Shown one piece after another: positions 25,319 to 52,509 of a stretch of 64,000 bases of DNA (the stretch's first letter is position 1; every line of letters starts with the position of its first letter). The stretch lies in assembly GCF_003591035.1 (NCBI RefSeq), contig NZ_QYUO01000001.1, positions 1,116,001 through 1,180,000 on the forward strand, written 5' to 3'. The DNA is from Noviherbaspirillum saxi (GTDB taxonomy: Bacteria > Pseudomonadota > Gammaproteobacteria > Burkholderiales > Burkholderiaceae_D). The position numbers and the translations under genes were made by a program. The notes under the pieces were generated by a model. That model worked only from the letters and a program-made list of their open reading frames with translations. It was not told the origin of the DNA and made no database searches.

Positions 25319-27454
25319 ATGAAAATTTCCCTGATGAAGTTGCGGGTGATCTGGCGTCGCTTCCGACGCTCTTCACCCGAGCACAATGAACACCATCTCC
25401 GATATGTCGCGCAAATCCAGGCCTTGATGCGCCGCGCCAACCCGTTCGCTTCATGGAATGAGCGCGCCAACTGGATGATCGATCTCGCGGAATGGCTGAG
25501 GCGAGCGCCGGCGCATTCTCGCCAGGATGCCGACGTATGGCAACGGGTCCGATACCAGCGGATACGCTTCCTGCTCGACTGGCTCGACAGGAATCGCGAT
25601 ACGAAAAGGGTAGTGCAGACCACTCTGCAAAAAACGCTGCGAGAGGCGGTCGGACCGGAACTGTTCTGCGCGACAGGTTTGCCGCGCGAACCGGCATTTT
25701 TCAGCGAACTATGGGAACGCGTGATCCGGTTGGCGTTGCCGCGGCCGCCGGGTCAGCAAGACCTCTCCACACTCTTCACGGCGATGTTTCCACGCGCTGC
25801 GGATGCCGACTGGCTGCTCGGCCTGGAGCAGGAAGACCTGACGCGCATCTGGAAGCTGTGTGCCGACGATGCGATTACACATAATTATCGCCAGCAGATC
25901 GACGAAGCCTTGACCTATCTGACGTCGATGATCATTGCCGTCGGCATCAGCTCCGAGTTTCGCCAGCGGCTGGAACCGCGCATGCCCTTGCAGGCGACGC
26001 CTTTTTTGGCCTTGCGGCGTGAACTGGAAAAATATCTGCTTTCCGGGACATACGACGAAGCTGCCTTGCGCAGCGTGCGCATGCTGATTGCGGTATGCCA
26101 GGCCCAAACCGATCGCATCTACGCGCATCTGGATGAATATGGCGTCTCAGTGAGCCTGGTCTATCGGGTCGAACGCATGCGCGCCCAGCTTGCACGGATG
26201 GCTCGGCTGCTCGACCTGCGTGCGGCGCCGCCGGGTGAGGAAGGCGCGGCGCAAGTTCATTCCCTCCTGGCCGATCTGATCGACTCCCATCATCATCGGT
26301 CCTCGGTGCATGGTCTGGTCAGTCGCAGCTTTTCCCTGCTGGCGCGCAAGATGGTCGAGCGCAATGCCGATCACGGCGAGCATTACATTGCGCGCGACCG
26401 CACCGAATATCGTGCCATGCTGACGGCGGCCATGCGCGGCGGCGCTCTTACTGCATTGACCGTATTGGTAAAGGGAGTGCTTCCTTCCGGTGGTGCCGCG
26501 CGTTTCTTTGAGGGCGCATTCGCATCGCTCAATTATGCGACGAGCTTCCTGCTGATTTCGGCCGTCGGCGGTACGCTGGCAACCAAGCAGCCGGCGATCA
26601 CGGCGCCTGCACTTGCGGCACGCATGCAAGCGCTGGATACAGTGGAAGGCTTGCGCAAGCTGCTGCAGGAAATCGCCTATCTGCTGCGCTCCCAGGCTGC
26701 CGCCATTTTTGGCAATCTGGTCGCCGTCATCCCAACCATGCTGATGATTTCGGCGGCCTTCATTTTTCTGGCCGGTGTTCCGGTCATGCCGCCCGCCAAG
26801 GCGGTGGCCGCGATCCAGGGATTGTCGCTGGTTGGCCCCACGCCCTTGTTCGCCGCCTTTACCGGCATCCTGTTATGGCTGTCGAGTCTGATGGCGGGCT
26901 TTGCCGATAACTGGTTCGCCCTGCGCAACATGCGCGAAGCGATTGCCCATCACCGTCGGCTGGTACATGCGCTTGGACCGGCCCGGGCCGAGCGCTGTGC
27001 AAAATGGGTTGAAAGCGGCGTGGCCGGAGTGACCGGTAATATTTCACTGGCCCTGTTGCTCGGAATGTCGCCTGTGCTCGCGCAGTTCTTCGGCCTGCCG
27101 CTCGATGTCCGGCATGTGACACTTTCCACCGGAACTCTTACCGCAGCAGTTTCCAGTCTCGGATGGGGCGCCTTGCTGACGCCCGAGACCTGGCTGGCGA
27201 TCTGTGGCGTTTTGCTGATCGGGTTGCTCAACGTCGGTGTCGCATTCGCCTGTGCGCTGGCTCTTGCCTTGCGTGCACGGGATGTTCCGCGCCGATTGCA
27301 GCGCCTGGTATTTCGAGCGGTGCTGCGGCGCTTTACCGCCACACCATGGCTATTCCTGTTTCCAGAGCGACGCGACGACAAGATGCCGGTCGCGCCGGAA
27401 CCTCGCGTTGAGGAGGCGCCATCGGAGCGTCGGCGTACCGGATCGGATCGCTAG
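25319..27454 (+). CDS. Membrane protein of the PF10136 'site-specific recombinase' family
   Basis: A 711-residue protein resembling the family named from gonococcal Gcr. Residues 1-370 are soluble and helix-rich; the remainder has several transmembrane segments (for example LVAVIPTMLMISAAFIFLAG and GILLWLSSLMAGFADNWFAL). Nothing resembling a tyrosine or serine recombinase active site is visible, so the family name is probably historical and I would treat the function as unknown. The TAG stop (27452-27454) lies inside the left terminal repeat of palindromic element A copy 1, so its natural C-terminus may have been altered by the insertion. Confidence 0.75.
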   Translation: MKISLMKLRVIWRRFRRSSPEHNEHHLRYVAQIQALMRRANPFASWNERANWMIDLAEWLRRAPAHSRQDADVWQRVRYQRIRFLLDWLDRNRDTKRVVQTTLQKTLREAVGPELFCATGLPREPAFFSELWERVIRLALPRPPGQQDLSTLFTAMFPRAADADWLLGLEQEDLTRIWKLCADDAITHNYRQQIDEALTYLTSMIIAVGISSEFRQRLEPRMPLQATPFLALRRELEKYLLSGTYDEAALRSVRMLIAVCQAQTDRIYAHLDEYGVSVSLVYRVERMRAQLARMARLLDLRAAPPGEEGAAQVHSLLADLIDSHHHRSSVHGLVSRSFSLLARKMVERNADHGEHYIARDRTEYRAMLTAAMRGGALTALTVLVKGVLPSGGAARFFEGAFASLNYATSFLLISAVGGTLATKQPAITAPALAARMQALDTVEGLRKLLQEIAYLLRSQAAAIFGNLVAVIPTMLMISAAFIFLAGVPVMPPAKAVAAIQGLSLVGPTPLFAAFTGILLWLSSLMAGFADNWFALRNMREAIAHHRRLVHALGPARAERCAKWVESGVAGVTGNISLALLLGMSPVLAQFFGLPLDVRHVTLSTGTLTAAVSSLGWGALLTPETWLAICGVLLIGLLNVGVAFACALALALRARDVPRRLQRLVFRAVLRRFTATPWLFLFPERRDDKMPVAPEPRVEEAPSERRRTGSDR

Positions 27455-27614
27455 TGTAGTGTTTCACGTCGATTGAGACTTATAAAAGTGATGGATTTCG
27501 CGGCGAATCGAGGCGCACACCGCAGCAATAGCGAGCTATTGCGAGGATGTGCAACGAAGAGTCGGCGTGAAAGACGCACTTTTATGTCTCAAGAAGAGTG
27601 AAACACTACACTAG
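27451..27614. repeat. Palindromic MITE-like element, type A copy 1
   Basis: A 164-bp element with perfect 17-bp terminal inverted repeats CTAGTGTAGTGTTTCAC and its complement at the right end. The centre is a perfect hairpin GCAATAGC-GA-GCTATTGC (27525-27542), and GCAACG starts 17 nt beyond the central GA. TA dinucleotides at 27452 and 27612 flank a 158-nt interior. Differs from copy 2 (29299-29462) at two bases. Its left end supplies the stop codon of the preceding gene. The DNA from 27615 to 27863 holds no recognised gene. Confidence 0.9.
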
Positions 27615-27863
27615 ATCAGCCCCGGGGCGCCGCGTCATCTGTCGACGTGGACTCCCCGGGAGTCTTAATGTAGAATTAAACGGTTTTGGTGCGTGAAAGC
27701 AACAACCGACTGTATCAGCGGCCGCGCTCAAAGTTTATCCGTCAGCGATTCGACCGGCGCAATCCGCGAACCAGCTCCCAACCGGCCTTGGTGCTGTTGC
27801 CGGGACCGGCCGGATCCCTTGCGGATAAGTTTTGAAAATTCGTATTAATAATCCCCAGCTATC

Positions 27864-28184
27864 ATGAAAAAACTCTTTGCGCTTCTCGCGCTTGCGGGTG
27901 TTGCAAACCTCGCCGCTGCAGCGGATGTGGTCGGCAACGCCAAGGCGGCGGAAAACAAGGTGGCCATGTGTATCGGCTGCCACGGCATTCCCGGATACAA
28001 GGCGACCTTCCCCGAGGTATATCAAGTGCCAATGATAGGCGGTCAGACCGCAAAATACATTGAGAGCGCGTTGAATGCCTACAAGAAGGGCGAGCGCAAG
28101 CACCCCAGCATGCGCGGCATCGCAGCCGGTCTGTCGGACCAGGATATCGCCGACGTCGCGGCGTACTACGCTCAGCAGAAATAA
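27864..28184 (+). CDS. Periplasmic c-type cytochrome (class I)
   Basis: A 106-residue exported cytochrome. A signal peptide ends near LAAAA, the haem site is CIGCH and the probable axial Met is in HPSMRG. It resembles cytochrome c4/c553-type domains that carry electrons in the periplasm to terminal oxidases or other acceptors. It is followed 10 nt later by a second small cytochrome, so the pair is probably an operon and could function as a dihaem unit in two polypeptides. Confidence 0.9.
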   Translation: MKKLFALLALAGVANLAAAADVVGNAKAAENKVAMCIGCHGIPGYKATFPEVYQVPMIGGQTAKYIESALNAYKKGERKHPSMRGIAAGLSDQDIADVAAYYAQQK

Positions 28185-28194
28185 GAGGGAATCG

Positions 28195-28539
28195 ATGATG
28201 AAAATGATTTTCGCAGGCGCAGCCGTATTGCTGTCGCTGAACGCATTTGCCGGCGGCAATATTGACGCCGGAAAGGCCGCCGCAGAGAAATTCAATTGTG
28301 CAGCCTGCCACGGCAAGGACTACAACACCCCGATCGATCCGAGCTATCCGAAACTCGCCGGTCAGCATAAGGATTACCTTGAGCAGTCCTTGATTTCCTA
28401 TAAGCGCGGTGGTGATGGTGCCAATGGCCGCGGCAACGCGATCATGGGCGCACAAGCCAAACCGCTCTCGCGTCAGGACATCCAGAACATCGCCGCCTAT
28501 CTGCATAGCCTTCCGGGAACACTGGTACTGCGTAAGTAA
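28195..28539 (+). CDS. Periplasmic c-type cytochrome (class I)
   Basis: A 114-residue exported cytochrome with signal peptide (MMKMIFAGAAVLLSLNAFA), haem motif CAACH and likely axial Met in GNAIMGAQA. ATG 28195 (or 28198) follows AAGAGGGA; longer frames run through the preceding gene. It is paralogous in layout to the upstream cytochrome. A strong intrinsic terminator at 28568-28597 ends this two-gene transcript. Confidence 0.9.
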   Translation: MMKMIFAGAAVLLSLNAFAGGNIDAGKAAAEKFNCAACHGKDYNTPIDPSYPKLAGQHKDYLEQSLISYKRGGDGANGRGNAIMGAQAKPLSRQDIQNIAAYLHSLPGTLVLRK

Positions 28540-28567
28540 TAACCAGGACGCAGCTTCTATGCGATAC

Positions 28568-28597
28568 AAAAAATGCCACGCTAGTCGTGGCATTTTT
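28568..28597 (+). terminator. Intrinsic terminator after the cytochrome pair
   Basis: AAAAATGCCACG (ending 28580), loop CTAGT, and CGTGGCATTTTT (28586-28597) form a 12-bp stem ending in a T-run. Confidence 0.92.
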
Positions 28598-28757
28598 GCG
28601 TTATGGCGATCCGATTCGGTTCGTCATACTCTAATGCTTCAAGTCTGCGCATTCCGGTTGAACACTGCACCTGCAAAGAAATCCAAGACTGTAGTCAGGC
28701 AGGCTGTCTCTGTTCACGACCGCCTGATACTTCACTCGCGGACGCAAGGAGGCAACG

Positions 28758-29264
28758 ATGAAACTGGATGAACTCAAGCAAGGATTGTCGTCATTCTGGG
28801 ATTCCATGGCAGAAGGGTGGCAACACATGCGACAGTCTGCCTCCACTGCACTGACTCGCTTCAAGCCTGGCGAAGCTACAAGTCTGCCTGTGAAGAGCGA
28901 TGTTGACGACGCTTTCTTCATTCCATCCGGAACATGGTCCATGCTGGGCGGCGACATGTTCGAAGATGAGCGGCGTGTCGTGGTACGCCTTGAAATCCCG
29001 GGTCTGGACAAGAACGATTTCGTAATCGACGTGCAGGACGGTACATTGGTCGTCAGCGGAGAAAAACGCTTCGAGCGCGAAAGCACCGAGGGGCGCTATC
29101 GCGTACTGCAATGCGCATATGGCAGCTTCCGCAGGGCATTTCCCTTGTCTGTCGCGGTGCTGCCCGAGCAGGCGCAAGCCAGTTACAAGAATGGTGTGCT
29201 GCGCGTCGAATTGCCGAAGGCCAGCATGGAAGCGCCGCGCAAGACGTCGATCAAGGTAGAGTAA
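28758..29264 (+). CDS. Hsp20/alpha-crystallin family small heat-shock protein
   Basis: A 168-residue small heat-shock protein: the alpha-crystallin domain runs from about residue 72 to 160, with VVVRLEIPGLDKNDFVIDV, the L-V-V-S-G-E-K-R strand and the family C-terminal NGVLRVELPK. These form oligomers that hold unfolding proteins for DnaK/ClpB. AGGAGG precedes ATG 28758. It ends 34 nt before palindromic element A copy 2. Confidence 0.93.
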   Translation: MKLDELKQGLSSFWDSMAEGWQHMRQSASTALTRFKPGEATSLPVKSDVDDAFFIPSGTWSMLGGDMFEDERRVVVRLEIPGLDKNDFVIDVQDGTLVVSGEKRFERESTEGRYRVLQCAYGSFRRAFPLSVAVLPEQAQASYKNGVLRVELPKASMEAPRKTSIKVE

Positions 29265-29298
29265 TTTCGGCGACTGTATGCCGGAAAACGCGAGTCGC

Positions 29299-29462
29299 CT
29301 AGTGTAGTGTTTCACGTAGATTGAGACTGATAAAAGTGATGGATTTCGCGGCGAATCGAGGCGCACACCGCAGCAATAGCGAGCTATTGCGAGGATGTGC
29401 AACGAAGAGTCGGCGTGAAAGACGCACTTTTATGTCTCAAGAAGAGTGAAACACTACACTAG
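29299..29462. repeat. Palindromic MITE-like element, type A copy 2
   Basis: A 164-bp element differing from copy 1 (27451-27614) at only two positions and in the same orientation. It has the same 17-bp CTAGTGTAGTGTTTCAC terminal inverted repeats, central hairpin GCAATAGC-GA-GCTATTGC (29373-29390) and flanking TA. Its right end supplies the TAG stop of the minus-strand DUF1841 gene. Confidence 0.9.
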
Positions 29463-29881
29463 CGTCGTTTGACGCACTCGATATACGTGGCGCCATCCGG
29501 CGGCAAGCCGCTGCGCTGCGAATTCCAGATCATTTCACCCAGGCATTCCATCATTTCATGGTGGGCGTCATGTTCGGAGCCAAGCCGCTGCGCCAGGCTA
29601 AGAAAGGCGGAGCGAATGCCGGGCGGCTGGTCGATCGATATCTGCTCGGCGATCGACAAATGCATGGATAGATGGAGAAAGGGATTGCTTTGACCGCGCT
29701 CCACCGAGTAATCCGCCGCCAGGGCAGCTTCGGTATCTCCAAGTGCGTCAGCATATTCTTCGTGTTGCAGAATCCAGTCACGCGCGATCGCTTCGAGCGG
29801 AGTCAGAATTTCCCCTGAATGAACCTTGCGAAAGGTTTCGCAAAAGAAGCGTCGAACATCGTGCTGTGAAGGAGTGAACAT
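29459..29881 (-). CDS. DUF1841 family protein
   Basis: A 140-residue helical protein of the DUF1841 family, frequent in beta- and gammaproteobacteria and of unknown function. Family features seen are an N-terminal FTPSQHDVRRFF, EAIARDWILQHEEY and the conserved NPFLHLSMHLSIAEQ. No signal peptide or membrane segment. The stop codon at 29459-29461 lies inside the right terminal repeat of element A copy 2, so the C-terminus (ending CVKRR) may have been set by that insertion. Confidence 0.85.
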   Translation of the reverse strand: MFTPSQHDVRRFFCETFRKVHSGEILTPLEAIARDWILQHEEYADALGDTEAALAADYSVERGQSNPFLHLSMHLSIAEQISIDQPPGIRSAFLSLAQRLGSEHDAHHEMMECLGEMIWNSQRSGLPPDGATYIECVKRR

Positions 29882-29971
29882 CGGCGGTGTTTCGGAAGGG
29901 CGGAAAGCTTCATTGTATCGTCTGCGGCTGCCCGATGATGACAGCGGCTATACAGTCAGGACGATAGGACT

Positions 29972-30622
29972 CTAAATCCCCTTTTCCGGTAACGGTGTCT
30001 TGTCCTTGTATTCGCATAAATCGGCAATGATGCAATTCCAGCACTGCGGCTTGCGCGCAATGCAGGTGTAGCGGCCGTGCAGGATCAGCCAGTGATGCGC
30101 ATCGTGCCGGAAATCCGTCGGGATGAACTTGAGCAGCTTGCGTTCGACCTCGTCGACGTTCTTGCCGGGGGCGATATTGGTACGGTTCGAAACGCGAAAG
30201 ATGTGGGTGTCGACCGCAATCGTCGGTTCGCCGAATGCGGTGTTCAACACTACGTTCGCGGTCTTGCGGCCTACACCGGGCAAGGCTTGCAATGCTTCGC
30301 GCGAGCGCGGGACTTCGCCGTTGTGCTGCTCGATCAGCAAGCGGCAGGTTTCAATCACATTCTTCGCCTTGGTGCGGTACAGCCCTATGGTTTTGATATA
30401 GCTTTCGAGCTCTTCCGCTCCCAGCGCATGGATCGCTGCCGGCGTGTTTGCCACCAGATATAGCCGCCGTGTTGCCTTGTTGACCGATACGTCGGTTGCC
30501 TGTGCCGACAGGATCACCGCGATCAGAAGTTCGAAGGGCGTTGTGTACTCCAGTTCGGTGGTCGGCTGGGGATTCGCTTGGCGGAAGCGTTGGAAGATTT
30601 CCAGACGTTTTTCGGCGTTCAT
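29972..30622 (-). CDS. nth: Endonuclease III
   Basis: A 216-residue DNA glycosylase/AP lyase that removes oxidised pyrimidines in base excision repair. Seen: the HhH motif [14 protein letters not shown] with the catalytic Lys, the Asp in [11 protein letters not shown], and the C-terminal [4Fe-4S] cluster Cys set C-x6-C-x2-C-x5-C ([17 protein letters not shown]). ATG 30622 overlaps the rnfB stop by four bases (ATGA), so it is translationally coupled to that gene; the upstream in-frame extension lies within rnfB. Confidence 0.95.
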
Positions 30623-31401
30623 TGCTTGTCTTTGGCTTGTTCGTCGAGCTTGCTGTTGACTTCCGCTACCTGCTTGCGCACCGCAGGCGACAGATCTGCA
30701 CATGTCGCCGTATCGGGTGCCGGCGTCGCAGCCATTTTTTCTTTTTGCAGGCGGGCGCGCTCCATAGCGGCCTGGATGATGGCTTTTTTCCGTTCCTGAG
30801 CCGCTTTTTCTTCAGGGTTTGGCGCCGCCTCGGCTTCCACTGTTTTCAGTTTCGCGGCAGCTTTGGCTGCGAGTCGCGCATCGTTTTCTTCCTTTTCGCG
30901 CCGCAGGCGAAACATGTGAAAGCGATGCCTTTCGCGCGCCGCATCGGCCTCTGCGCGCGACCATGCTCCCCATCCGCTCTTGCCCGGTGTGACATCGACC
31001 ATGGAAATGCAGTCGACCGGACAGGGGGCTACGCACAGGTCGCAGCCGGTACACAGGTTGGCAACGACAGTGTGCATTTGTTTTGCCGCGCCAGCAATCG
31101 CATCGACCGGGCAAGCCTGGATGCACAAGGTACAACCGATGCACAAGGCATCATCGATCACCGCGACCGGGCGGACGCGTTCAACCCCGTTGATCGGATT
31201 CAGCGGAATGACGGGTTTGCCGAGCAGATTTGCCAGACGGGCAACGCCTTCGATACCACCCGGCGGGCATTGATTGTAGCCGGCGGTACCGGCCGCAATT
31301 GCCTCGGCATAGGGGCGGCATGCGGGATAGCCGCACTTCGTACATTGCGTTTGCGGCAGCAGGTCTTCGATCTGATCGGCGAGAGCGTTGGAGGAGGGCA
31401 C
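30619..31401 (-). CDS. RnfB/RsxB-type iron-sulfur electron transfer protein
   Basis: A 260-residue protein with an N-terminal Fe-S (DUF/FeS) domain ([19 protein letters not shown] ... CPPGG), two [4Fe-4S] ferredoxin motifs ([16 protein letters not shown] and [16 protein letters not shown]) and a Lys/Ala-rich charged tail rich in coiled-coil. It resembles RnfB, but lacks the N-terminal membrane helix and the other Rnf subunits are absent here, as usual in betaproteobacteria. Start is GTG 31401 without a strong ribosome site. Linked to nth, it may feed electrons to its cluster, which is inference. Confidence 0.85.
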
Positions 31402-31459
31402 GGCAGGGTTATGCAGGAAAAAACAGGATTATCCCGGTAAAACGGCGCGTCCACAAACG

Positions 31460-31491
31460 AAAAAGCCGTTCACCTTCACGGCGAACGGCTT
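31460..31491 (-). terminator. Intrinsic terminator downstream of phaZ
   Basis: On the minus strand AAGCCGTTCGCC (31491-31480), loop GTGAA, GGTGAACGGCTT (31474-31463) and a T-run to 31460 form a 12-bp stem with one mismatch, 20 nt beyond the phaZ stop. Confidence 0.88.
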
Positions 31492-31511
31492 GATGCGGGC
31501 GAAGACGCGGA

Positions 31512-32747
31512 TCAGGCGTTGGCGCGGATGAACTCGCCGATCTTCGGGCAAATCACTTCACGCCAGCGACGGCCCGAGAAAATGCCGTAATGACCGCATT
31601 TGGGTGCAGTGAAATGCTGCTTCTTGTCTTTGGGGATGTTTGCGCAGAGATCATGCGCGGCTTGTGTCTGGCCGGTACCGGAAATGTCATCCAATTCGCC
31701 TTCGATGGTGAACAAGGCGACATTTTTGATATCTTGCGGACGTACCAGCTTGCCTTCGACTTCCCAAGTGCCTTTGGGCAACCGGAACTCCTGGAAAACC
31801 GTCTTGATGGTTTCCAGATAATATTCGGCCGGCATGTCGAGCACGGCATTGTATTCATCGTAGAACTTGCGATGCTCTTCAGCCGACTCGTTGTCGCCTT
31901 CGCGCAGATGCATGTAGAAATCCCAATGGCTTTGCGCATGGCGGCTCGGGTTCATCGCGACGAAACCTGCATGCTGCAGGAAGCCAGGGTAGACCTTGCG
32001 CCCGAATGCCGGATAGTTGGCCGGCACGCTGTAGATCACCTTGGTCTCAAACCAGGAAAACGGCTTTTCGGTTGCCAGGTTGTTGACCTGGGTCGGAGAC
32101 TTGCGGGGGTCGATAGGGCCGCCCATCATCGTCATCGTTTTCGGCAGCTTCGGATCATTGGCACTGGCCATCAGCGAGATGGCGGCAAGAACCGGTACTG
32201 TCGGCTGGCAAACCGAAATGACATGCACATCAGGGCCGAGGCGGCGGATGAAATCCTGTACGTAGTAAATGTAGTCATGCAGATGAAACGCGCCTTCGCT
32301 CATCGGCACCATGCGTGCATCGGTCCAGTCGGTGATGAAAACGTCATGTTCCGACAACAGGGCGCGTACGGTATCGCGCAGCAGGGTGGAATGATGGCCG
32401 GAGAGCGGAGCGACCAGCAGCACGGTGGGCTGCTTCAGATTGGCGAATTGCTTGTCGCTCAAGTCTTTCTTGAAATGGATGAGTCGGCAGAACGGTTTCT
32501 GTTCGGCGATTTCTTCAAATACGCCAACCGATTTACCGGCGACGGGCACGGTCTTGATGCCGAATTCCGGTTTTTCGTAATCTTTGCCGAGGCGATAAAG
32601 TAGTTCGTAACCAGCCGCTATGCGCTGTGCATAGGGTGTATGCGCGAGAGGCGAAACTGGATTGGTAAAGAGCTTGGCCGAGGCTTCCGCCCATTGAATG
32701 AGCGGGTTCAGGAAAGTCCGATTCAACTCGTGAAATTGATAAAGCAT
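31512..32747 (-). CDS. phaZ: Intracellular polyhydroxyalkanoate depolymerase
   Basis: A 411-residue alpha/beta-hydrolase of the intracellular PHB depolymerase family (PhaZ1 of Cupriavidus type), which mobilises polyhydroxybutyrate granules. The lipase-box position reads VISVCQPTVPV with Cys as nucleophile instead of Ser, as in that family; a His occurs in PKCGHYGIFSGRRWR near the C-terminus. No signal peptide, as expected. Start at 32747 is chosen because GAGG lies upstream; a 5-codon longer start exists at 32762. It implies PHB storage in this organism. Confidence 0.92.
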   Translation of the reverse strand: MLYQFHELNRTFLNPLIQWAEASAKLFTNPVSPLAHTPYAQRIAAGYELLYRLGKDYEKPEFGIKTVPVAGKSVGVFEEIAEQKPFCRLIHFKKDLSDKQFANLKQPTVLLVAPLSGHHSTLLRDTVRALLSEHDVFITDWTDARMVPMSEGAFHLHDYIYYVQDFIRRLGPDVHVISVCQPTVPVLAAISLMASANDPKLPKTMTMMGGPIDPRKSPTQVNNLATEKPFSWFETKVIYSVPANYPAFGRKVYPGFLQHAGFVAMNPSRHAQSHWDFYMHLREGDNESAEEHRKFYDEYNAVLDMPAEYYLETIKTVFQEFRLPKGTWEVEGKLVRPQDIKNVALFTIEGELDDISGTGQTQAAHDLCANIPKDKKQHFTAPKCGHYGIFSGRRWREVICPKIGEFIRANA

Positions 32748-33380
32748 AGTGGCCTCGTTCAAATGGTACCGGTGTCGCTAGATTCTGCAGTGAAATTTTC
32801 CGTGCTGCAATGCATCAACAACAATTTTTAGGTGTTTCTGTAAAAAAAGATGAGGCGGTAAATGTCGTACTCGTTTCTTTGTCAAGCAATTAAAGTTGGG
32901 ACGGGAAACATCATTTCGAACTCTGCTCCTTTCCATAAAGTAACATAGCTTGAAAGCCTGCAGATACAAGTTTTCCGTATCGTTTTCGCTTTACGACAAA
33001 CGACCTCACTGCAATGCACATAGGCGCCATGCAGTTTATTTAAGACCTATAAAGCGGCTGTCAATGTGATCTTCTACAGAGCAGCGGCATTTCCCGCTCC
33101 GCATGTCACTAAACGACGCAATATCGCAACACGGTGTATCGGTAAAGCACTACTTGATGAAAATTGCGGCTCTGACATTTGCCTTGCAACCAAAACCCAG
33201 CATAAGTTATGCCAACTTTTATCCAAGGCGTTGAACGCTCTTTTTCAGCTATTTATGCGCTTTTTCTTCGCTTGGCTGCGACATTAGACGATAATGTTGC
33301 GGTTTCGGTATCGGCCGGGTAAAGGCGTTAGCAAAGTCAATGTAATTTTTACTTCCATGATGTTCGCGGCAAACCAACAT
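32748..33380. other. Long AT-rich intergenic region
   Basis: About 630 nt between divergent phaZ and the copper operon, visibly lower in GC than its neighbours. It must hold both promoters. An inverted repeat ACATTA-GACGA-TAATGT (33281-33297) is the only structure noticed. No convincing gene or RNA was recognised. Confidence 0.5.
33281..33297. promoter_or_regulatory. Inverted repeat upstream of the copper operon
   Basis: ACATTA (33281-33286) and TAATGT (33292-33297) flank GACGA; the symmetry extends imperfectly outward to GCGACATTA/TAATGTTGC. It overlaps a possible -10 box GATAAT (33290-33295), so it could be an operator, but no regulator is assigned. Confidence 0.4.
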
Positions 33381-33716: not shown

Positions 33717-33943
33717 CTGGCAGTTGGCAAGCTCGTGTGCGGGTCGCGCTTCGATCTTGCGCATTACGTTTTCGACACACTGCCAAAGCCTTAACGAATT
33801 GACTGATATTCCGACGTTTGCGGAATGTCGGTTCCGCGTCATTTTGCTGGAACCCGGCGCGACAATTTCAATCCTTTCAACGACGTCTTGCTGCGCTGGT
33901 TGGCTCGGCGGGGCTTGTTGATGCTCAGTCTGAGTGTGGGCAC

Positions 33944-42325: not shown

Positions 42326-42356
42326 GGTGTCGTGTCTGATGTTGAAATGGTTTTCG

Positions 42357-43754
<1,398 letters not shown>

Positions 43755-44669
43755 TTAATTGAGTTTGCCCAGGACCAGGTACTCAAGCAGCGCCTTCTGC
43801 ACGTGCAAACGGTTCTCGGCTTCGTCCCACACCACCGATTGCGGGCCGTCGATCACTTCGGCGGCGACTTCCTCGCCACGGTGCGCCGGCAGGCAATGCA
43901 TGAAGAGGGCGTCGGCATTGGCGCGCTTCATCTTCTCGGCGTCGACGATCCAGCCGTCGAAGGCTTTCAGTCGCGCCGCGTTTTCTTCTTCGTAGCCCAT
44001 GCTGGTCCAGACGTCGGTGGTCACGAGATCCGCGCCCGCGCACGCATCGGACGGATTGGCGAAGAAGGTGTAATTACTGTTGCCCGATGCAACCAGCGAC
44101 TGGTCGATTTCGTAGCCCTTCGGCGTCGAGACGTTGACATGGAAGCCGAAGATCTGCGCTGCCTGCAGCCAGGAGTAGAGCATGTTGTTGGCGTCGCCGA
44201 TCCACGCGACAGTCTTGTCCTTGATGGAGCCGCGATGCTCGATATACGTGAACACGTCGGCCAGCACCTGGCAGGGATGATGTTCATTGGTCAGGCCATT
44301 GATGACCGGTACGCGCGAGTGGCCGGCAAAGCGATCGATGATGTCCTGCCCGAAGGTGCGGACCATGATGATGTCGCACATGCGGGACATGACCTGTGCC
44401 GCATCTTCTACCGGTTCGCCGCGGCCGAGCTGGCTGTCGCGGGTGTTCAGGTAGATCGCCGCGCCGCCGAGCTGATGCATGCCGGCCTCGAAGGACAGGC
44501 GGGTCCGCGTCGAGTTCTTTTCGAACACCATCACCAGAGTGCGGTCGAGCAGCGTGTGGTGCGGCTCGTAATTCTTGAATTTGCGCTTGATGATTCGGCT
44601 ACGTTCGATCACGTAGTCGAATTCATCAAGCGTAAAGTCAGAAAACTGCAGGAAGTGTTTGATAGCCAT
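43755..44669 (-). CDS. argF: Ornithine carbamoyltransferase (anabolic)
   Basis: A 304-residue transferase making citrulline from ornithine and carbamoyl phosphate. The carbamoyl-phosphate motif STRTRLSFE is at about 53-61, HPCQVLAD at about 130-137 and the catalytic-loop HCLPAHRG near the C-terminus. MAIKHFL at 44669 is the family start. It is followed by argG. The leader between rsgA and argF has a hairpin GGCGGCA/TGCCGCC (44680-44710). Confidence 0.96.
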   Translation of the reverse strand: MAIKHFLQFSDFTLDEFDYVIERSRIIKRKFKNYEPHHTLLDRTLVMVFEKNSTRTRLSFEAGMHQLGGAAIYLNTRDSQLGRGEPVEDAAQVMSRMCDIIMVRTFGQDIIDRFAGHSRVPVINGLTNEHHPCQVLADVFTYIEHRGSIKDKTVAWIGDANNMLYSWLQAAQIFGFHVNVSTPKGYEIDQSLVASGNSNYTFFANPSDACAGADLVTTDVWTSMGYEEENAARLKAFDGWIVDAEKMKRANADALFMHCLPAHRGEEVAAEVIDGPQSVVWDEAENRLHVQKALLEYLVLGKLN

Positions 44670-44679
44670 AAATGGAAAC

Positions 44680-44710
44680 GGCGGCAAGTGCTTGGTTGGC
44701 TCCTGCCGCC
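44680..44710 (-). other. Hairpin in the argF 5' region
   Basis: GGCGGCA (44680-44686) pairs with TGCCGCC (44704-44710) around a 17-nt loop. It lies between the rsgA stop and the argF start, so it could end the rsgA transcript or lie in the argF leader. There is no T-run. Confidence 0.4.
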
Positions 44711-44791
44711 GGATGGTTGTAAGCCGTTCAATTATAAGAGATTTTCTGTCGAAAGGATAACAGACCGGTATCCTGGTCGGTACCTTGTAGC

Positions 44792-45694
44792 TTAGTAAAG
44801 CTTCTGCGAAGACTCATGCACCAGCTGTTGGTAAAGAGCATGACGCAGCGGCACAATCTCGCCCGATTCGACTGCTTCCAGCACGGCGCAACCCGGTTCG
44901 TTCAAATGATGGCAGTTGTAGAACTTGCAATTTCCCAGGCGTGGTCCGAACTCGAGGAATGCTCTTTCCAGCATGCCCTCGGTCAGGTGATACAGCCCGA
45001 ACTCCTGGAATCCCGGTGAATCGATGATGGCGCTGTGGTCGTCAATGGCGAACAGGCGGGTGAAGGTCGTGGTGTGCTTGCCGGAATCAAGTGCCGCGGA
45101 AATTTCGCGCGTCGCCAGCTCGGCGTCCGGAACCAGCAGGTTGATCAACGACGACTTGCCCATGCCCGACTGTCCAATGAGAATCGTCGATTGACCGTCC
45201 AGCAAAGGCTTGAGCGTTGCGCAAGTCTGCTCGGGGTTCCTGCGGGCCGACACCTCATGGATCGGATAACCGAGCCGTGCATACATGCCCAGGCGCTCGC
45301 GGGTTTTGGGCAGCAGCTCCGTCACATCGACCTTGTTGAGGATGATGTGCGCATCGATGCCGCCCGCTTCGGCGGCTACCAGGGCGCGCGATACCAGATC
45401 GTCCGAATAGCCTGGCTCGGTCGCAACCACGATAAACAGCTGGGTCACATTGGCTGCAAGCAGTTTCGATTTGTATTGGTCGGAGCGATAGAGCAGGGTT
45501 TTGCGCTCGCCGATCGACTCGATCACGCCCTGATTGGCCGAAGTCTTTTTCAGTTCGACCATATCGCCTACCGCGACATCGCTTTTCTTGCCTCGCGTGA
45601 CGCACTGCAATTTTTCATCGCCTGCCTGCACCAGGTAATGCCGTCCATGTGCGGCGATCACGGTGCCGGTACCGCATGCTCCTGCTACTGTCAC
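44792..45694 (-). CDS. rsgA: Ribosome small subunit-dependent GTPase A
   Basis: A 300-residue circularly permuted GTPase acting in late 30S ribosome maturation. The order is G4 (LNKVDVTE), G1 (GQSGMGKSS) and G3 ([10 protein letters not shown]), diagnostic of RsgA, with an N-terminal OB domain and a C-terminal zinc site C-x-F-Y-N-C-H-H-x4-P-G-C. Start is GTG 45694, overlapping the PCD stop; the family start is close by. Third gene of an M48-PCD-rsgA transcript. Confidence 0.95.
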
Positions 45695-46041
45695 TGCGCG
45701 GCTTGCCGGTAGATCGCGTCCAGCTTCGCGGCGCTGATGAAATCATTTTCCGAAATGCCGCCGCGTCCTCCATTGACGGAATGCGTATCGAACTTCGCGA
45801 CGCAGCGGTTGTAGGTGATAATCAATTCCGGATGGTGGTCGTCGGCATGAATCACGTAGGCAATTGCATTCACGAACGCCAGCGTCTGGTAATAGTTCTT
45901 GAATGCAAAGGTCTTGACGACCTTGCCATCCTGCAGCGCCCAGCCGTCGACGGCGGCAAGGTGCTCGGTGATTTCGGCTTCGGTAAGCGCGGTTTCGGTA
46001 TGCCGGCCTCGTTTTTGAATCAGTTCTGCAGCGGTGACCAT
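45691..46041 (-). CDS. Pterin-4a-carbinolamine dehydratase
   Basis: A 116-residue PCD/DCoH-type enzyme that dehydrates 4a-hydroxytetrahydrobiopterin, supporting phenylalanine hydroxylase. The active-site pattern [17 protein letters not shown] carries the characteristic His pair. It sits between an M48 protease and rsgA, sharing four bases with the latter, so its role may be housekeeping rather than tied to a hydroxylase, none of which is seen here. ATG 46041. Confidence 0.92.
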
Positions 46042-46051
46042 GATGAATTCC

Positions 46052-47311
46052 TTATTGGCTGGCGAGTAGATGTTGGATGCGCACGCTCGCCGGCGGATGC
46101 GAATCGTAGAAGGCGGAATGCAAGGGATCCGGCGTCAGCGTGGATGCGTTGTCTTCGTACAGTTTGACCAGGGCCGATACCAGATCGTTGGCATCGGTGT
46201 ATTGGGCGGCGAAGGCGTCCGCCTCGAATTCGTGCTTGCGCGATGTGATCGATGACAGCGGCGAAAACACGAAGGTAAAGACCGGCAAGACAAGCATGAA
46301 CAGAATCAGGGCCATCGCGTCGTTATTTCCCAGCAGCATCGGGTCGACGCCAAGTCCGGTGTAGAACCAGACCTGCGTTTTCAGATAGCCGAGCAGTGCC
46401 AGGAAGGCGAGCGATATCGCGAACATCACCACGATGCGCTTGACGATATGCTTGAGCTTGAAATGCCCCAGTTCATGGGCGAGCACCGCTTCAATTTCCT
46501 GCGGCCCCAGGCGGGCAAGCAGAGTGTCGAAAAACACGATGCGCTTGGCCGCGCCAAAGCCGGAAAAATAGGCATTGCCATGCGCGCTGCGCTTGGAGCC
46601 GTCCATCACGAACAGGCCCTTGGACGCAAAACCGACACGCTGCATCAGGCCTTCGATGCGCGCACGCAGGCTTTCATCCTGCAGCGGCGTGAACTTGTTG
46701 AACAGCGGCGCAATGACAGTCGGGTAGAGCACCAGCATCAGCAACTGGAAGCTGATCCACACGATCCACGCATAGAGCCACCACAGATCGCCGGACTTGT
46801 CCATCAGCGTCAGGATCACCCACACCAGCGGCAATCCGATTACGACGCCGACGACAGTGTTCTTGATGAGATCGGTGATGAATAGACGCAATGTCATCTT
46901 GTTGAAGCCGAATTTTTCTTCCAGCACAAATTGCTTGTAATAGTCGAAAGGCAGCTCGATCAGCGCGGAAATCAAACCGAAACTGGCGAGCAGGGCAAGC
47001 TGGTATCCCATGCCGGGACCGGTGAGCTTGAACAGGCTGACCGACAGCCACTGGAGACCGCCAAACAGCGTGAAGCCGATCAGCACGATGGTATTGACCA
47101 TCAGAGTGATCATGCCCAGCTTGGTCCGGGCGACCGTGTAATCGGCCGCTTTCTGGTGTGCATACAATGGAATCTTTTCCGCAAATTCGGCCGGAACCGC
47201 AGCGCGATGGGCCAGCACGTGACGGATGTGCCGCGAGCCAAGCCAGAAGCGCAGTAGCACGGTAAGTCCGAGGAAGCTGACGAACAAGACGGAAAACGCA
47301 AATGAAGACAT
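46052..47311 (-). CDS. M48-family zinc metalloprotease (Ste24-like)
   Basis: A 419-residue inner-membrane protease with several transmembrane segments and the zinc motif HELGH in [13 protein letters not shown], plus the third ligand in [11 protein letters not shown]. It resembles CAAX protease Ste24-type family members. Start at 47311 gives the hydrophobic N-terminus; its start region is 42 nt from the divergent orn gene. First gene of the transcript with PCD and rsgA. Its physiological substrate is unknown. Confidence 0.9.
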
Positions 47312-47353
47312 GCTGTGCCTGTGAGAAAATGGCGGTTTACCAAGGAACAAATT

Positions 47354-47947
47354 ATGTCACAAGCTACTGAAACCAATACCAATAACAGCACCGGCGCAAA
47401 CGTTCGCCCGAATGAATTCAATCTGGTCTGGGTCGACATGGAAATGACCGGACTGGACCCCGACTCCGACCGCATCATCGAAATTGCGGTGATCGTCACC
47501 GACTCCAATCTGAATGTCCTGGCCGAGGGCCCGGTGTTTGCAATTCATCAACCCGATGAAGTGCTGGACAAGATGGATTCCTGGAACAAGGGCACGCATG
47601 GCCGTTCGGGGCTGATCGATCGCGTCAAGGCTTCCACCGTCACTGAAGCCGATGCAGAGGCAGCGCTTATCGAGTTTTTGAAGCGCTACGTGCCCTCGGG
47701 CAAGGCGCCGATGTGCGGAAATTCGATCTGCCAGGACCGTCGCTTCATGGTGCGCGGCATGCCCAAGCTGGAAGCGTTTTTCCATTATCGCAATCTCGAT
47801 GTGTCGACGCTCAAGGAATTGTGCAAGCGCTGGAAGCCCGAGATCGCGTCCGGTTTCAAGAAGCACCAGAAACATACCGCCCTGGCCGACATTACCGAAT
47901 CGATCGAGGAACTGCGCTATTACCGTGAGCATTTCATCAAGGTTTGA
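47354..47947 (+). CDS. orn: Oligoribonuclease
   Basis: A 197-residue DEDDh 3'-5' exoribonuclease that degrades RNA dinucleotides. Motif I is [12 protein letters not shown], motif II contains [10 protein letters not shown] and motif III the [14 protein letters not shown]is-Asp pair. The N-terminal 20 residues (Asn/Thr rich) extend beyond the E. coli enzyme. AAGGAAC precedes ATG 47354. It is divergent from the M48 protease gene, with a 42-nt gap. Confidence 0.96.
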
Positions 47948-48057
47948 ACCGCCTGCGAGTTGTCTTCCTGTTCATCGGCTTTTGGCATGACTACGCCGGA
48001 TTCGACTTCGGGTCCGGGAGCCGGTAAACTTCAGTCCCCTTTTTTCAAAGCCGAAAC

Positions 48058-49725
48058 ATGGCCTCCGCTCCAGATACACCGTCGACCGAAGCGCTCGACG
48101 TCACCCCCGACACCCGCAAGGTTCCGACCGAACTGATCGCCAGGGAGGTCGCACGCCGTCGTACCTTCGGCATTATTTCCCACCCGGACGCCGGTAAAAC
48201 CACGCTGACCGAAAAGCTTTTGCTGTTTTCAGGCGCGATCCAGCTTGCCGGTACCGTCAAGGCACGTAAAAGCGGCCGCCATGCGACTTCCGACTGGATG
48301 GAAATCGAAAAGCAGCGCGGCATTTCGGTTGCCAGTTCCGTCATGCAGTTTGAATACCGCGACCATGTGGTCAATCTGCTTGACACGCCGGGGCACCAGG
48401 ATTTTTCCGAGGATACCTATCGCGTGCTGACGGCGGTGGATTCGGCGCTGATGGTGATTGACGCCGCCAAGGGCGTCGAGGAGCAGACGATCAAGCTGCT
48501 GAACGTCTGCCGCATGCGTGCGACGCCCATCCTGACGTTCATGAACAAGATGGACCGCGAGACGCGCGATCCGCTGGAATTGCTGGATGAAGTCGAATCG
48601 GTGCTGAAGATACAGTGCGCGCCGGTAACTTGGCCTATCGGCATGGGCAAGAATTTCCGTGGCGTCTACCATCTGTTGCGTGACGAAATCCTGTTGTTCA
48701 AGGCAGGCGAGGAACGGGCCGACCAGGAGTTCGAAGTCATCAAGGGCATCGACAATCCGCGTCTGACGGAAATGTTCCCGCTGGAAATCGAACAGCTGAA
48801 AATGGAAGTGGAACTGGTGCACGGTGCTTCGCATCCGTTCGACCTCGACGCTTTCCTGGCCGGTACCCAGACCCCGGTATTTTTCGGCTCGGCGATCAAT
48901 AACTTCGGCGTGCGCGAGATTCTCAACGCGCTGCTCGACTGGGCGCCAGCCCCGCGTTCGCGCGATGCTTCCGTGCGGGCTGTCGAGCCGGTCGAAGCGC
49001 CGTTCTCGGGCTTCGTGTTCAAGATCCAGGCCAATATGGATCCCGCCCACCGCGACCGGATTGCATTTCTGCGCGTCTGTTCCGGGCGTTTCGAACGTGG
49101 CATGAAAGTCAAGCACCTGCGCCTGAACCGCGAAATCAAGGTCTCTAGCGTGGTCACCTTCATGGCGTCCAGCCGCGAACAGGTGGAAGAAGCTTATGCC
49201 GGCGACATCATCGGCTTGCCCAACCACGGCAACATGCAGATCGGCGACAGCTTCTCTGAAGGCGAATTGCTGCAGTTCACCGGCATTCCGTATTTTGCGC
49301 CGGACTTTTTCCGTTCGGTACGCATTCGCAATCCGCTCAAGATCAAGCAGTTGCATAAAGGCTTGCAGCAGCTGGGCGAAGAAGGTGCGGTGCAGGTGTT
49401 CAAGCCGGTGCATGGCGGCGACCTGGTATTGGGCGCGGTCGGCGTGCTGCAGTTTGAGGTGGTCGCCAGCCGCTTGCTGAATGAATACGGCGTCGATGCG
49501 GTGTTCGAGGGTACAAGCATCAGCAGCGCCCGCTGGATTTCCAGTGACGACAAGAAGGCCCTGGCTGACTTCGAGAGGTCGTCGGCCGGCGCCAATATTG
49601 CGTTCGACGCGGCAAACAACATGGCTTATCTGGCAACGTCCGGTGTCAATCTCAAGCTGACGCAGGAACGCTGGCCGCAATTGACCTTCCACGCAACCCG
49701 CGAGCATGCGGTAAAGGTCGGCTAG
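48058..49725 (+). CDS. prfC: Peptide chain release factor 3
   Basis: A 555-residue translational GTPase that recycles RF1/RF2 after termination. G1 is [16 protein letters not shown]3 [13 protein letters not shown] and G4 MNKMDRE, followed by an EF-G-like domain II and III. The roughly 25-residue N-terminal extension is longer than in E. coli. The frame closes at TAG 49723-49725 and is followed by a strong terminator. Confidence 0.96.
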
Positions 49726-49808
49726 TGACTCACTAGAAAATAAGGCCGGCAGTCGTCAGGCTGTTCACGGTGAGAGTGCATGACAGACGTGGCATGCACC
49801 TGGTTTTC

Positions 49809-49850
49809 ATAACAGTGCCTTGTTTACTGCAAGGCACTGTTATTTTAAGA
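49809..49850 (+). terminator. Intrinsic terminator of prfC
   Basis: ATAACAGTGCCTTG (49809-49822), a 7-nt loop and CAAGGCACTGTTAT (49830-49843) form 14 perfect pairs followed by TTTT. Confidence 0.92.
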
Positions 49851-49897
49851 GCAAGCTTTATTTCCTGGCGAAATTTTGCGTGTTCCCTACAGATATT

Positions 49898-50058
49898 TAG
49901 AGCGCTTTCGTCCTGACTATACCGTCAATCCCGGGCGATTTGCTTGCGGCACTGCGTTGCGCCTCCTTGCCATGGCTCGCCATGTCGCGTCGCCACGCCT
50001 TGTTCCGCAAGCAAATCGCCTCGGGCTTGCCTGATCCACTCAGGACGAAAGCGCTCTA
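49898..50058. repeat. Palindromic MITE-like element, type B
   Basis: A 161-bp element with perfect 19-bp terminal inverted repeats TAGAGCGCTTTCGTCCTGA and its complement (50040-50058). Internal GCGATTTGCTTGCGG pairs with its exact complement near 50010, and the centre is CATGGC-TC-GCCATG (49971-49984). On the minus strand GCAACG begins 17 nt from the central dinucleotide, as in types A and C. TA at 49898 and 50057 bound a 157-nt interior. The rest of 49726-50254 holds only the prfC terminator. Confidence 0.85.
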
Positions 50059-50254
50059 GTATTTCCCTTCTATATACGGGGGAATAGGCGGACCTTGAAG
50101 ATGCGTTTGAGGTAAATCAAACAGGCCGAAAGGCCACCGCCTATACTCTCCCAACGTTTTAAATCCTGCCATTTTCGCAATTATTTGATGCGTCGAAGCC
50201 GGCACGCTTCTCGCTCCATCTTTGCTATTGCGCTCCAACAGTCAAAGGATATGC

Positions 50255-50836
50255 ATGCTTACTGCAACCTACGCCACTATTGCCATCGCTACCGAACAGG
50301 ACAAAACCCGCAACATGCTTTGCCGCCTGCAGCAATACGTCGAGACGGCGTGGAAGAGTCTGCACAATCTTGATCTTGCCTTTCTGGATACGGCATTCGG
50401 CAAGCTCACTCAATTCGACCGCTATTTCCGCTCGCGCAAGATCGACTTGTACCTGATTCCTACATTGCAAGGAGTCAACAGGGAAGCCGACATCATCATC
50501 ACCGAGATCGCGGGAAGCAGTTCGAAAGCGGGCAGCGTACTGCGTTCTGTCGGCGAGCAGCTGGGGAGCGTTTTCGAATTCCGCAGCGCCAAGGCGAATG
50601 AGTTATTCCATTCCATGTATATGTATTGCCGTCATGTGTCGGTGCGTATCGAGAGGGAAGAGAAAGAACTGCTGCCGCTATCGCGCAGGCTGCTTTCCGT
50701 CGACCAATGGTTTTCGATTGCTGCACAATTTCTTGCCGATGATGCAACCGGCCCGGGCAATCGGCATGGCCATGCTATAGGATCGTCTTCATCGTCTTCC
50801 TCCAGGAGCTCCCGCTCCACTATCAATCTGCATTAA
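50255..50836 (+). CDS. Hemerythrin-like helical protein with lost metal ligands
   Basis: A 193-residue helical protein. The stretch from about residue 125, REEKELLPLSRRLLSVDQW, matches the HHE hemerythrin C-terminal pattern (E-E-E-L-x-P-L-A-E-R-L-L), but the His residues that bind iron in the first helices are missing, so a di-iron site is unlikely. The C-terminus is Ser-rich (GSSSSSSSRSSRST). AAAGGA (50244-50249) precedes ATG 50255. Fold assignment is inference. It stands alone and shows no signal peptide. Confidence 0.6.
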   Translation: MLTATYATIAIATEQDKTRNMLCRLQQYVETAWKSLHNLDLAFLDTAFGKLTQFDRYFRSRKIDLYLIPTLQGVNREADIIITEIAGSSSKAGSVLRSVGEQLGSVFEFRSAKANELFHSMYMYCRHVSVRIEREEKELLPLSRRLLSVDQWFSIAAQFLADDATGPGNRHGHAIGSSSSSSSRSSRSTINLH

Positions 50837-51009
50837 GTCAGCATTAACAACGCTTCTCTCACTACCTGACTGAATCGTACTGACGTTCGGTTCAGTCAAG
50901 GCATGTACGCCGCGCGTAATTGATCGTGCTTTGTTCGCGGGTGTTTCTGCGCTTGCATAGTCATGTGTTTCTTGGCATGGTGTGGCCCATGATTTCAATC
51001 AGGTCACGC

Positions 51010-52347
51010 ATGCCCAAGATGCTCAAGTTCACCCGGTTTTCCCTGCGCGATTTTCTGGTCGCTGCGGGACCGGCTGCCGTCGCCGTGCTGGCGACCTGCC
51101 TGCTGGCTTACTGGCTCGTCGATCCTTCGCCTCCGTCCAGCGTGACGCTGGCCACCGGTCAGGACAACAGTGCTTATCAGGCATTAGGAAAACAATATGC
51201 GGGCGCGCTGGCCAAGGTGGATATCCGAGTCGTGCAGCAGCCATCGCTGGGTTCGCAGGAAAACCTGCAGCGCCTGAAAGACCCGGCGTCGGCCGTCGAT
51301 ATCGCATTCGTTCAGAGCGGTTCGACCGAGCATGAGGAAGCCGAGCGTGTCGGTTTGGTGTCGCTTGGTAGTCTATTCACAGAACCGGTATGGCTTTTCC
51401 TTCGCAACGGCCGGAATGTGAGCAAACTGAGTCAGTTGAAAGGCATGAACATCAACGTCGGTCCGGAGGGTACCGGCGTGCCCAGTCTGTTCAGAAAAAT
51501 CCTCTCGGTCAACGGCGTTGAAGCCATGGAGCTGAAACTTGGGGCACTGGAAGATACCCCGGCAACAGTGGAATTGCTCGCCGGCCGTATTGATGGCCTG
51601 GTATTCAGTTCGGCTCCCGATGCGCCGCTGATTCAGATGCTCTTGCAAACTCCGGGAATCAAGCTGTTCGACTTTGCCCAGGCCGAGGCCTACACCCGCC
51701 GCTTTCCCTTCCTGTCGCATGTAGTGTTGCCAAGGGGGATTGTCGATCTTGGTCGTGATCTGCCGCCGAAGGACTATCATCTGATCGCGCCGACCGCGAC
51801 GCTGGTGGCCAAGGAAGATCTGCATCCCGCGCTGATTAACCTGTTCGTACAGGCGGCATCGAACATTCATGGAAACGCCGGCTGGTTTAACAAAAAGCAG
51901 GAATTTCCCACAGCGAGCTATACCGAGATTCCGGTATCGCCTGTCGCACAAAAATTTTACAAGGATGGGCCGCCGCTGCTGCAGCGTTATCTGCCGTTCT
52001 GGCTCGCTAATTTCTTTGAGCGCATGTGGGTAGTGGTGGTCGCGCTGGGTGCGCTGATCCTGCCGTTGTCGCGGATTATCCCTCCGTTGTACGTCTGGAA
52101 AGTGCGTTCGCGCGTGTACCGCTGGTATGGGCAGTTGCGCGCGGTCGAACAGGCGATCGAAGAGGTGGCGCCGGAAAAGCAGGCCGAAGTTTATCCCGCA
52201 CAGCTGCAGCGTCTCAACGATATCGAAGAGCGCGTCAACCGGATTTCGATACCCTTGTCATTCGCGGACGAGCTCTATGGGTTACGCAGTCACATCAACT
52301 TTGTACGCCGGCGCGTCGCCGGCTTGATGCGCAGCGAGGCACAGTAG
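51010..52347 (+). CDS. TAXI-family TRAP-type solute-binding protein
   Basis: A 445-residue protein of the TAXI group. A membrane anchor (FLVAAGPAAVAVLATCLLAYWLV) is followed by the ligand-binding fold: TLATGQDNSAYQALGKQYA, DIAFVQSGS, NINVGPEGTGVPSLFRKIL. A second membrane helix (VVVVALGALILPLSRIIP) and a charged coiled-coil follow at about 345-440, an extension not found in simple TAXI binding proteins. No TRAP permease genes adjoin it. ATG 51010 gives the anchor. Its stop is directly followed by palindromic element C. Confidence 0.85.
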   Translation: MPKMLKFTRFSLRDFLVAAGPAAVAVLATCLLAYWLVDPSPPSSVTLATGQDNSAYQALGKQYAGALAKVDIRVVQQPSLGSQENLQRLKDPASAVDIAFVQSGSTEHEEAERVGLVSLGSLFTEPVWLFLRNGRNVSKLSQLKGMNINVGPEGTGVPSLFRKILSVNGVEAMELKLGALEDTPATVELLAGRIDGLVFSSAPDAPLIQMLLQTPGIKLFDFAQAEAYTRRFPFLSHVVLPRGIVDLGRDLPPKDYHLIAPTATLVAKEDLHPALINLFVQAASNIHGNAGWFNKKQEFPTASYTEIPVSPVAQKFYKDGPPLLQRYLPFWLANFFERMWVVVVALGALILPLSRIIPPLYVWKVRSRVYRWYGQLRAVEQAIEEVAPEKQAEVYPAQLQRLNDIEERVNRISIPLSFADELYGLRSHINFVRRRVAGLMRSEAQ

Positions 52348-52509
52348 TAATACCAATCCCATGCCATAACGCGCCATGACATTGCGTCTTTTTCCGCCTG
52401 GCGGCGTTGCACTCGTCGTCAATAGCTCGCTATTGACTCCTCTTGCGCCTTGCCAGTCGAAAAAATCCATCAATGTCATCCGGCACCTTATGACATGGGA
52501 TTGGTATAA
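52348..52509. repeat. Palindromic MITE-like element, type C
   Basis: A 162-bp element whose ends TAATACCAATCCCATG and CATGGGATTGGTATAA are inverted repeats at 15 of 16 positions; it is flanked by TAA. The centre CAATAGC-TC-GCTATTG (52420-52435) is the same stem as type A, and CGTTGC (52405-52410) is 17 nt from the centre. It begins directly after the TAG stop of the TAXI gene and lies before a convergent rhodanese gene. Confidence 0.82.

Follow-up and report, generated by a model that had tools for sequence, protein, structure and literature searches.

Fold-back MITEs with many different ends share one structured core in Noviherbaspirillum saxi and in other bacterial phyla

Miniature inverted-repeat transposable elements (MITEs) are usually classed by their ends, as the debris of one insertion sequence (IS). 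The closest described systems are the Correia (NEMIS) repeats of Neisseria, which, in the excerpted text of PMC2229807, measure ~107 to 155 bp and form long stem-loops with TA termini, a target duplication, and terminal repeats of ~24 bp. Repetitive extragenic palindromic (REP) sequences, in the excerpt of PMC3733652, are palindromic, extragenic, present in many copies over a wide taxonomic range, 20 to 40 bp long, tagged by GTAG or CGTC, and linked to a tyrosine transposase. Here we describe four fold-back elements of three types (A in two copies, B, and C) in a 64,000-nucleotide stretch of Noviherbaspirillum saxi DNA (the window, C1:1116001-1180000 of a 6.5-Mb assembly in three contigs), which carry the same structured core between different ends. 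Bacterial MITEs are a known kind of element, but a single structured core common to many ends, target duplications, and phyla is new as far as checked: the partial texts found in open-licence PMC describe no core that MITEs of different ends have in common, and an earlier report may exist in subscription papers.

Compared by description, the elements resemble Correia repeats in size, stem-loop fold, TA ends, target duplication, and terminal repeats; a preliminary description of this stretch had drawn the same parallel, which holds in size, TA ends, and fold. Correia repeats differ in being a single family with its own ends and an IHF site in the 155-bp form, and the excerpt mentions no shared core. 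ERIC and RUP are likewise small fold-back, MITE-like repeats with TA ends, but single families for which the same excerpt (PMC2229807) mentions no core shared across ends. MITEs derived from IS630 likewise have a TA target and, as in types A and J, the ends of a complete IS630 element present in their genome, whereas the interior found here is not IS derived and is common to MITEs with other target duplications. REP sequences and their RAYT system share palindromy, extragenic location, copy number, and wide taxonomic range, but the present elements are 160 or 270 bp long with terminal repeats and target duplications, and identity with REP was rejected on size and tag as defined in the excerpt of PMC3733652. 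A MITE has also been reported in Polaromonas JS666, as cited in the excerpt of PMC10969869; a JS666 record contains a match to our core pattern (locus L336) with an arm span of only 124 bp.

All four palindromic elements are present at the places first proposed. A1 (27452..27613, plus strand) and A2 (29300..29461, plus strand) are near-identical copies of 162 bp, including TA target bases at both ends; their location stands, although one flanking base too many had been counted at each end. Their conserved cores occupy 27490..27576 (C1:1143490-1143576) and 29338..29424 (C1:1145338-1145424), read on the plus strand. The cores of B (49898..50058, 161 bp including TA at both ends) and C (52348..52509, 162 bp) read on the minus strand, at 49933..50022 (C1:1165933-1166022) and 52385..52471 (C1:1168385-1168471), respectively. 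TA at each end, as originally described, applies to A and B; C is flanked by a 3-bp TAA (52348-52350 and 52507-52509), which fits the TNA rule of its family; what had been read as a terminal TA belongs to a 3-bp duplication. The elements have the terminal inverted repeats of MITEs and fall within their typical size of <500 bp. Folded end to end with RNA parameters, A, B, and C reach -84.0, -99.7, and -93.4 kcal/mol. Model R1, a covariance model built from 15 cores that are all A, B, or C copies (5 of them by design not independent of A, B, and C), found four matches at E ≤ 1 inside the window, identical with these elements.

When the interiors of A, B, and C are aligned, a variable apical hairpin is seen to be flanked by strands that all three share. 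Each element folds into a long imperfect hairpin. It has a terminal-repeat stem and a second stem, a short apical hairpin, and an asymmetric internal loop whose strands are near-invariant, CAAGGCGC on one side and GCAAC..nG on the other. As noted earlier, inspection by eye places GCAACG from the 17th base past the central GA in A, B, and C and finds 15 of 19 bases after the stem identical between A and B. The central GA is likewise present in these three types, but it is not a rule, since other copies have GG, GGT, CAT, or other loops.

Covariation supports this structure. In 17 cores of this genome aligned across end types, 85.4% of 390 cells are paired, with 76 compensatory cells versus 25.5 after shuffling and a covariation score of 0.507 versus 0.159 shuffled and at most 0.114 slid, a comparison that favors the structure because it was drawn from the same sequences. 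The cross-genome alignment comprises 130 cores (129 distinct) from 99 loci outside this genome; it leaves out L193, a near-copy, together with 9 of the 80 named loci, some of them weak. Here 88.3% of 2,907 cells pair, double changes occur in 21 of 23 pairs, and 805 compensatory cells are counted versus 274 shuffled (score 0.649 versus 0.170 shuffled and at most 0.109 slid), in an alignment that was fitted to model R2 and for which a pattern fixing the boxes had supplied 71 of the 99 loci. The 36 rows not chosen by pattern, which were found via the model and therefore also lean towards it, retain on the 5' strand C (36), A (35), A (36), G (36), G (36), C (36), G (34), and C (34), and on the 3' strand G (34), C (33), A (36), A (36), C (36), G (30), C (33), C (21), and G (36). 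Helices that are free in their letters while pairing is kept, together with loops whose letters are kept, suggest that selection probably acts on a folded strand of one polarity. Against Rfam 15 the window gave no match, and six element loci at E ≤ 1 gave two matches under the gathering scores, both outside the element of L014; a known Rfam family was thus rejected for the window and these loci at gathering score.

How far does the core extend beyond the window? The genome scan with R1 scored the best 150 of 4,590 candidates, so its counts are lower bounds: at least 123 matches at E ≤ 1 and at least 112 at E ≤ 1e-3, one of the latter probably an assembly duplicate at contig ends. Two C copies at opposite ends of contig C2 (L056 and L057) have identical flanks and are probably one place in an assembly overlap. 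DNA searches, with 40 candidates scored for each type and hence also giving lower bounds, found at least 8 full copies of A plus 2 diverged, partial ones, at least 34 places with at least 136 of 161 bases of B covered, and at least 23 places with at least 155 of 162 bases of C covered, plus partial ones. About 40 of the 123 R1 matches belong to other types. Inspection of 60 stretches around these and some other matches placed the core on about ten end types, among them D (TAGTGGGTCACTTGGC), E (TTAAGGCTACGCTGAATAAGTCC), F (TTA-GGCGCCGCGCAGGAATAAGTT), G (TNA-GGAATGTGTACGGAATAAGTT), J (AGTGTCCTGAGTTGTTAGTTCG), and K (TAGAGCAGTTTGAGTG); in types H and I a second core follows the first by eye, and R1 detects both only at C2:79441-79645. 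The genome-wide search that had been suggested thus returned further copies, and the scope exceeds what was visible in the window: this genome has about ten end types, and the core recurs in other phyla.

Some copies depart from this plan. Coreless derivatives at L184, L185, and L186 are short palindromes with B ends 76 bp apart or C ends back to back. An extra piece of 14 to 16 nt, GGGG(G/C)CGCCGAG or its reverse complement, occurs in some copies (for example L030, L052, L157, L160, L174, and L182). Its position varies among types B, C, F, and I, it is seen in either orientation, and L069 and L182 have it as a tandem pair; related pieces are found in L154, L161, and L183, and the piece may fold into a small hairpin whose loop is TCGGC. 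Its exact 12-mer has 38 hits in 246,555 bases of our own loci, all within elements by context, and none in the window. A lone B-like end with 3 mismatches lies at window positions 29955-29974, ~0.5 kb past A2, and the search gave no partner end for it.

The elements come in two sizes. Clear terminal repeats are present in 74 of the 95 named loci with room for them, spanning 150 to 189 bp in 31, 260 to 289 bp in 31, and other lengths in 12; the classes correspond to ~165 bp with one core and ~270 bp with two facing cores. Core pairs lie 103 to 108 bp apart in 15 of 80 loci, always plus then minus, so that the two-core form offers one core in a given polarity on either strand. One locus from an Oxalobacteraceae metagenome-assembled genome (MAG), L284 at 3795-4336, holds five direct tandem cores with ~118-bp spacing. 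Among 49 cores with a classed end, where long elements count up to twice, TAGTG-type ends have 14 long and 5 short, RGRRCNTGTT-type ends 17 and 2, and GG-type ends 2 and 9. Cores from different loci have an identity of 0.573 when their ends are of the same class and of 0.562 when the classes differ: core and ends are nearly uncoupled. The two arms of an element, by contrast, change together. The match between arms at variable positions is 0.897 in B versus 0.716 shuffled (best shuffle 0.863; 13 distinct arm pairs among 25 copies kept of 30) and 0.877 in C versus 0.574 (best shuffle 0.787; 17 distinct arm pairs among 19 copies kept of 29), the retention of copies with at least 60% matched arms being a selection that favors this result.

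Target duplications support the arrival of the elements by insertion, as in other MITEs. In 25 copies of type C found by their ends, the 3-base flanks are identical in 20 and TNA stands on both sides in 21; N is equal in 20 of these 21 and complementary in none (shuffle p ~1e-5, the limit of the test). Type G has TNA on both sides in 15 of 16 copies with N equal in 14, and type F in 8 of 9 with N equal in 7, where the weak shuffle p of 0.13 reflects the dominance of T at N. TTAA flanks both sides in 4 of 5 copies of type E, and TA does so in 30 of 35 B, 7 of 10 A, and 4 of 5 D copies. At L168, where a G element adjoins a C fragment, a candidate nested insertion was not clean, with flanks TAA and TTA.

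Sites in relatives agree with insertion. A plus-strand open reading frame (ORF; 50920-52347) stops immediately before C (52345-52350), and the 3' end of a minus-strand ORF lies at 52558. Twelve same-genus genomes were searched for the genes flanking C, and in all 11 that had both the intergenic distance is -8 to 65 nt, versus 212 here; the site is thus without the element in every scored relative, at the level of gene order. The 23 loci of relatives at the C and B sites gave no core at E ≤ 0.1, while both of our own cores were detected.

A search for full-length IS elements with the same ends, as had been proposed, identified two. The genome has 19 DDE_3 matches, ten of which belong to two kinds of full element: an A-like IS of 1,162 bp in five copies, whose ends TAGTGTAGTGCTTTCG and TAGTGTAGTGCTTCG match type A (best in the diverged copies L132 and L163), and a J-like IS of 1,166 bp (1,151 in one copy) in five copies, whose ends TAGTGTCCTGAGTTAGAA match type J. 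One protein of each scores 277.8 and 265.9 bits against NCBIfam IS630 (cut-off 100). Both IS630-family elements (L340-L344 and L346-L350) are apparently intact. Full-length transposons with MITE ends were therefore found only for A and J; in a degenerate IS630 copy one end is B-like, and the second was not found. From these shared ends we infer that A and J are moved in trans by IS630, as B probably is too. E, F, and G are probably moved by an IS5-like enzyme, judging from their flanks and from what we take to be the IS5 end sequence. Around the 9 PF01609 matches of this genome, with terminal repeats computed for 5, there was no end pair like C, E, F, or G, and no full IS5-type element with E, F, or G ends.

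The core is recorded far beyond this genome. In a survey of the class with R2, which scored at most 18 candidates in each of 274 genomes, 86 match at E ≤ 1e-4, our own included, and 188 do not; with R1 at E ≤ 0.01, 19 of 40 genomes match, our own included. Same-genus relatives have 0 to 87 R1 matches. The exact core pattern occurs in at least 120 loci of named genomes, and the first 80 all match R2 at E ≤ 0.01, partly by construction, as the pattern fixes the boxes. Among 27 genomes behind such pattern loci, matches at E ≤ 0.01 were obtained in 25, the exceptions being a Crossiella and a delta-proteobacterial MAG; these genomes were preselected and hence give no prevalence, and MAG labels can be wrong. 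Matches number 44 in Streptomyces NBRC 110028, 49 in an Acidimicrobiales MAG, 48 in an Acidobacteria MAG, 53 in a Planctomycetota MAG, and 61 in Acidovorax A1169. Ends differ elsewhere, with CTAGTGCCGCGTCAGCC in the Streptomyces and CTAGTGGTGTGTCGTGGG in the Acidimicrobiales MAG, and the Acidovorax elements have J-like ends. With one F-type core as the query at E ≤ 0.01, no phage record and one plasmid record (Mitsuaria, 75.7% identity) were found, and the exact pattern is present in 35 IMG/VR stretches.

Other features of the window concern its genes. The left end of A1 (27452-27454) supplies the TAG stop of a 711-amino-acid plus-strand ORF (25319-27454), and the right end of A2 (29459-29461) that of a 140-amino-acid minus-strand ORF (29459-29881). 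A 70-nt inverted repeat of 83% identity (57387-57456 and 61303-61372), its arms 3.8 kb apart, may reflect two related genes.

We consider it probable that the elements form one superfamily of fold-back MITEs, moved in trans and built around a selected folded core. Their unity as a superfamily and their mobilization in trans are likely, and the ends would be moved by whichever DDE transposase fits them. This agrees with the preliminary proposal of nonautonomous MITEs moved by several transposases that recognize different ends, given the varied target duplications, the empty C site, and the IS630 elements with A and J ends; several transposases are implicated because the two IS630 elements differ in their ends and other types differ in target duplications. 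The core would be the shared, selected part, and probably one strand folds, either as RNA or, in the course of transposition or replication, as single-stranded or cruciform DNA, helping the element to spread or persist; that the selected fold acts for the element we regard as an even bet. Since the arms of B and C change together, one arm may change first and the other then be rewritten to match, so that ends would be exchanged over time at constant length, because hairpin arms can template each other; this exchange is a tentative proposal. Equally speculative is the wider possibility that the core is a real selfish unit, a folded nucleic acid untied to one transposase that would pass between end lineages, borrow IS630, IS5-like, and other transposases, take one-core and two-core forms in which either strand presents it in the active direction, and spread through several phyla without encoding a protein.

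Several observations weigh against this picture of a shared core moved in trans. The link between core and ends is weak but detectable, as 4 of 300 label shuffles reach the observed difference. The target duplication is absent or different in 5 of 25 C, 5 of 35 B, 3 of 10 A, 2 of 9 F, 2 of 16 G, 1 of 5 D, and 1 of 5 E copies. Empty sites are resolved by gene order and not to the base, since the relatives are only ~70 to 85% identical, and the B site, which lacks the core in relatives, has intergenic lengths of 161 to 513 nt there versus 496 here, too variable for judging emptiness by length. A search of the genome for end pairs 0.8 to 3 kb apart revealed no autonomous partner for C, and the flanks of the PF13358 and PF01609 matches scanned in this genome revealed none for E, F, or G. 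The fitting of the cross-genome alignment to its model counts here as well, as does the absence of strand bias in the cores (57 plus and 54 minus among 111 R1 matches, the probable assembly duplicate omitted); GC skew at 30 loci was too noisy for placing origins and reading a replication-strand bias.

Could the core be a functionless passenger, a hairpin repeatedly caught between unrelated ends by nested insertion or deletion? The near uncoupling of core and ends would fit, as would adjoining elements such as those at L168 and the coreless ends of L184-L186; yet compensatory changes in 21 of 23 pairs beside near-invariant loop strands, and two narrow size classes, are unexpected of an inert captured piece, and we find this explanation unlikely. 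Hairpins serving the host, at transcript 3' ends, in RNA processing, or as chromosome sites, could also have been spread by transposition and then kept. Their very stable folds speak for such a role, as does the setting of the copies: simple calls place an ORF on either side of 66 among the 69 A, B, and C loci, in 26 convergent, 33 tandem, and 7 divergent arrangements, raw counts not set against a genome-wide expectation. However, copies are distributed patchily over the same-genus relatives, 11 of which lack the element at the C site, and there is no orientation bias, neither by strand nor in tandem genes (++ 12, -- 21), which makes a host role quite improbable. Because of that patchiness, a role of the core in the movement or upkeep of the element is favored over one for the host. 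Chance or convergence of GC-rich palindromes might be invoked for short boxes in GC-rich genomes, where isolated pattern hits do occur: 2 of the 27 preselected genomes lack a match at a genome-wide E ≤ 0.01, and weak matches (~26 to 35 bits) in preselected loci of the 12-genome scope could include chance. The other 25 genomes do match, and the 112 matches in our own genome, the 86 of 274 genomes, and the covariation contradict this origin, which was rejected on copy number and covariation as exceedingly improbable; the shared core first noted by eye is thus beyond chance.

MITEs with many ends and several target duplications therefore have one covarying structure in common, recorded in Pseudomonadota, Actinomycetota, Acidobacteria, Planctomycetota, and others. 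The analysis yields a covariance model for a repeat class without a match in Rfam 15, and it makes testable both the role of a folded interior in a successful MITE and the manner in which the ends of a transposon can alter with its two arms still matching. The shared core suggests a hairpin whose mobility does not depend on any one transposase.

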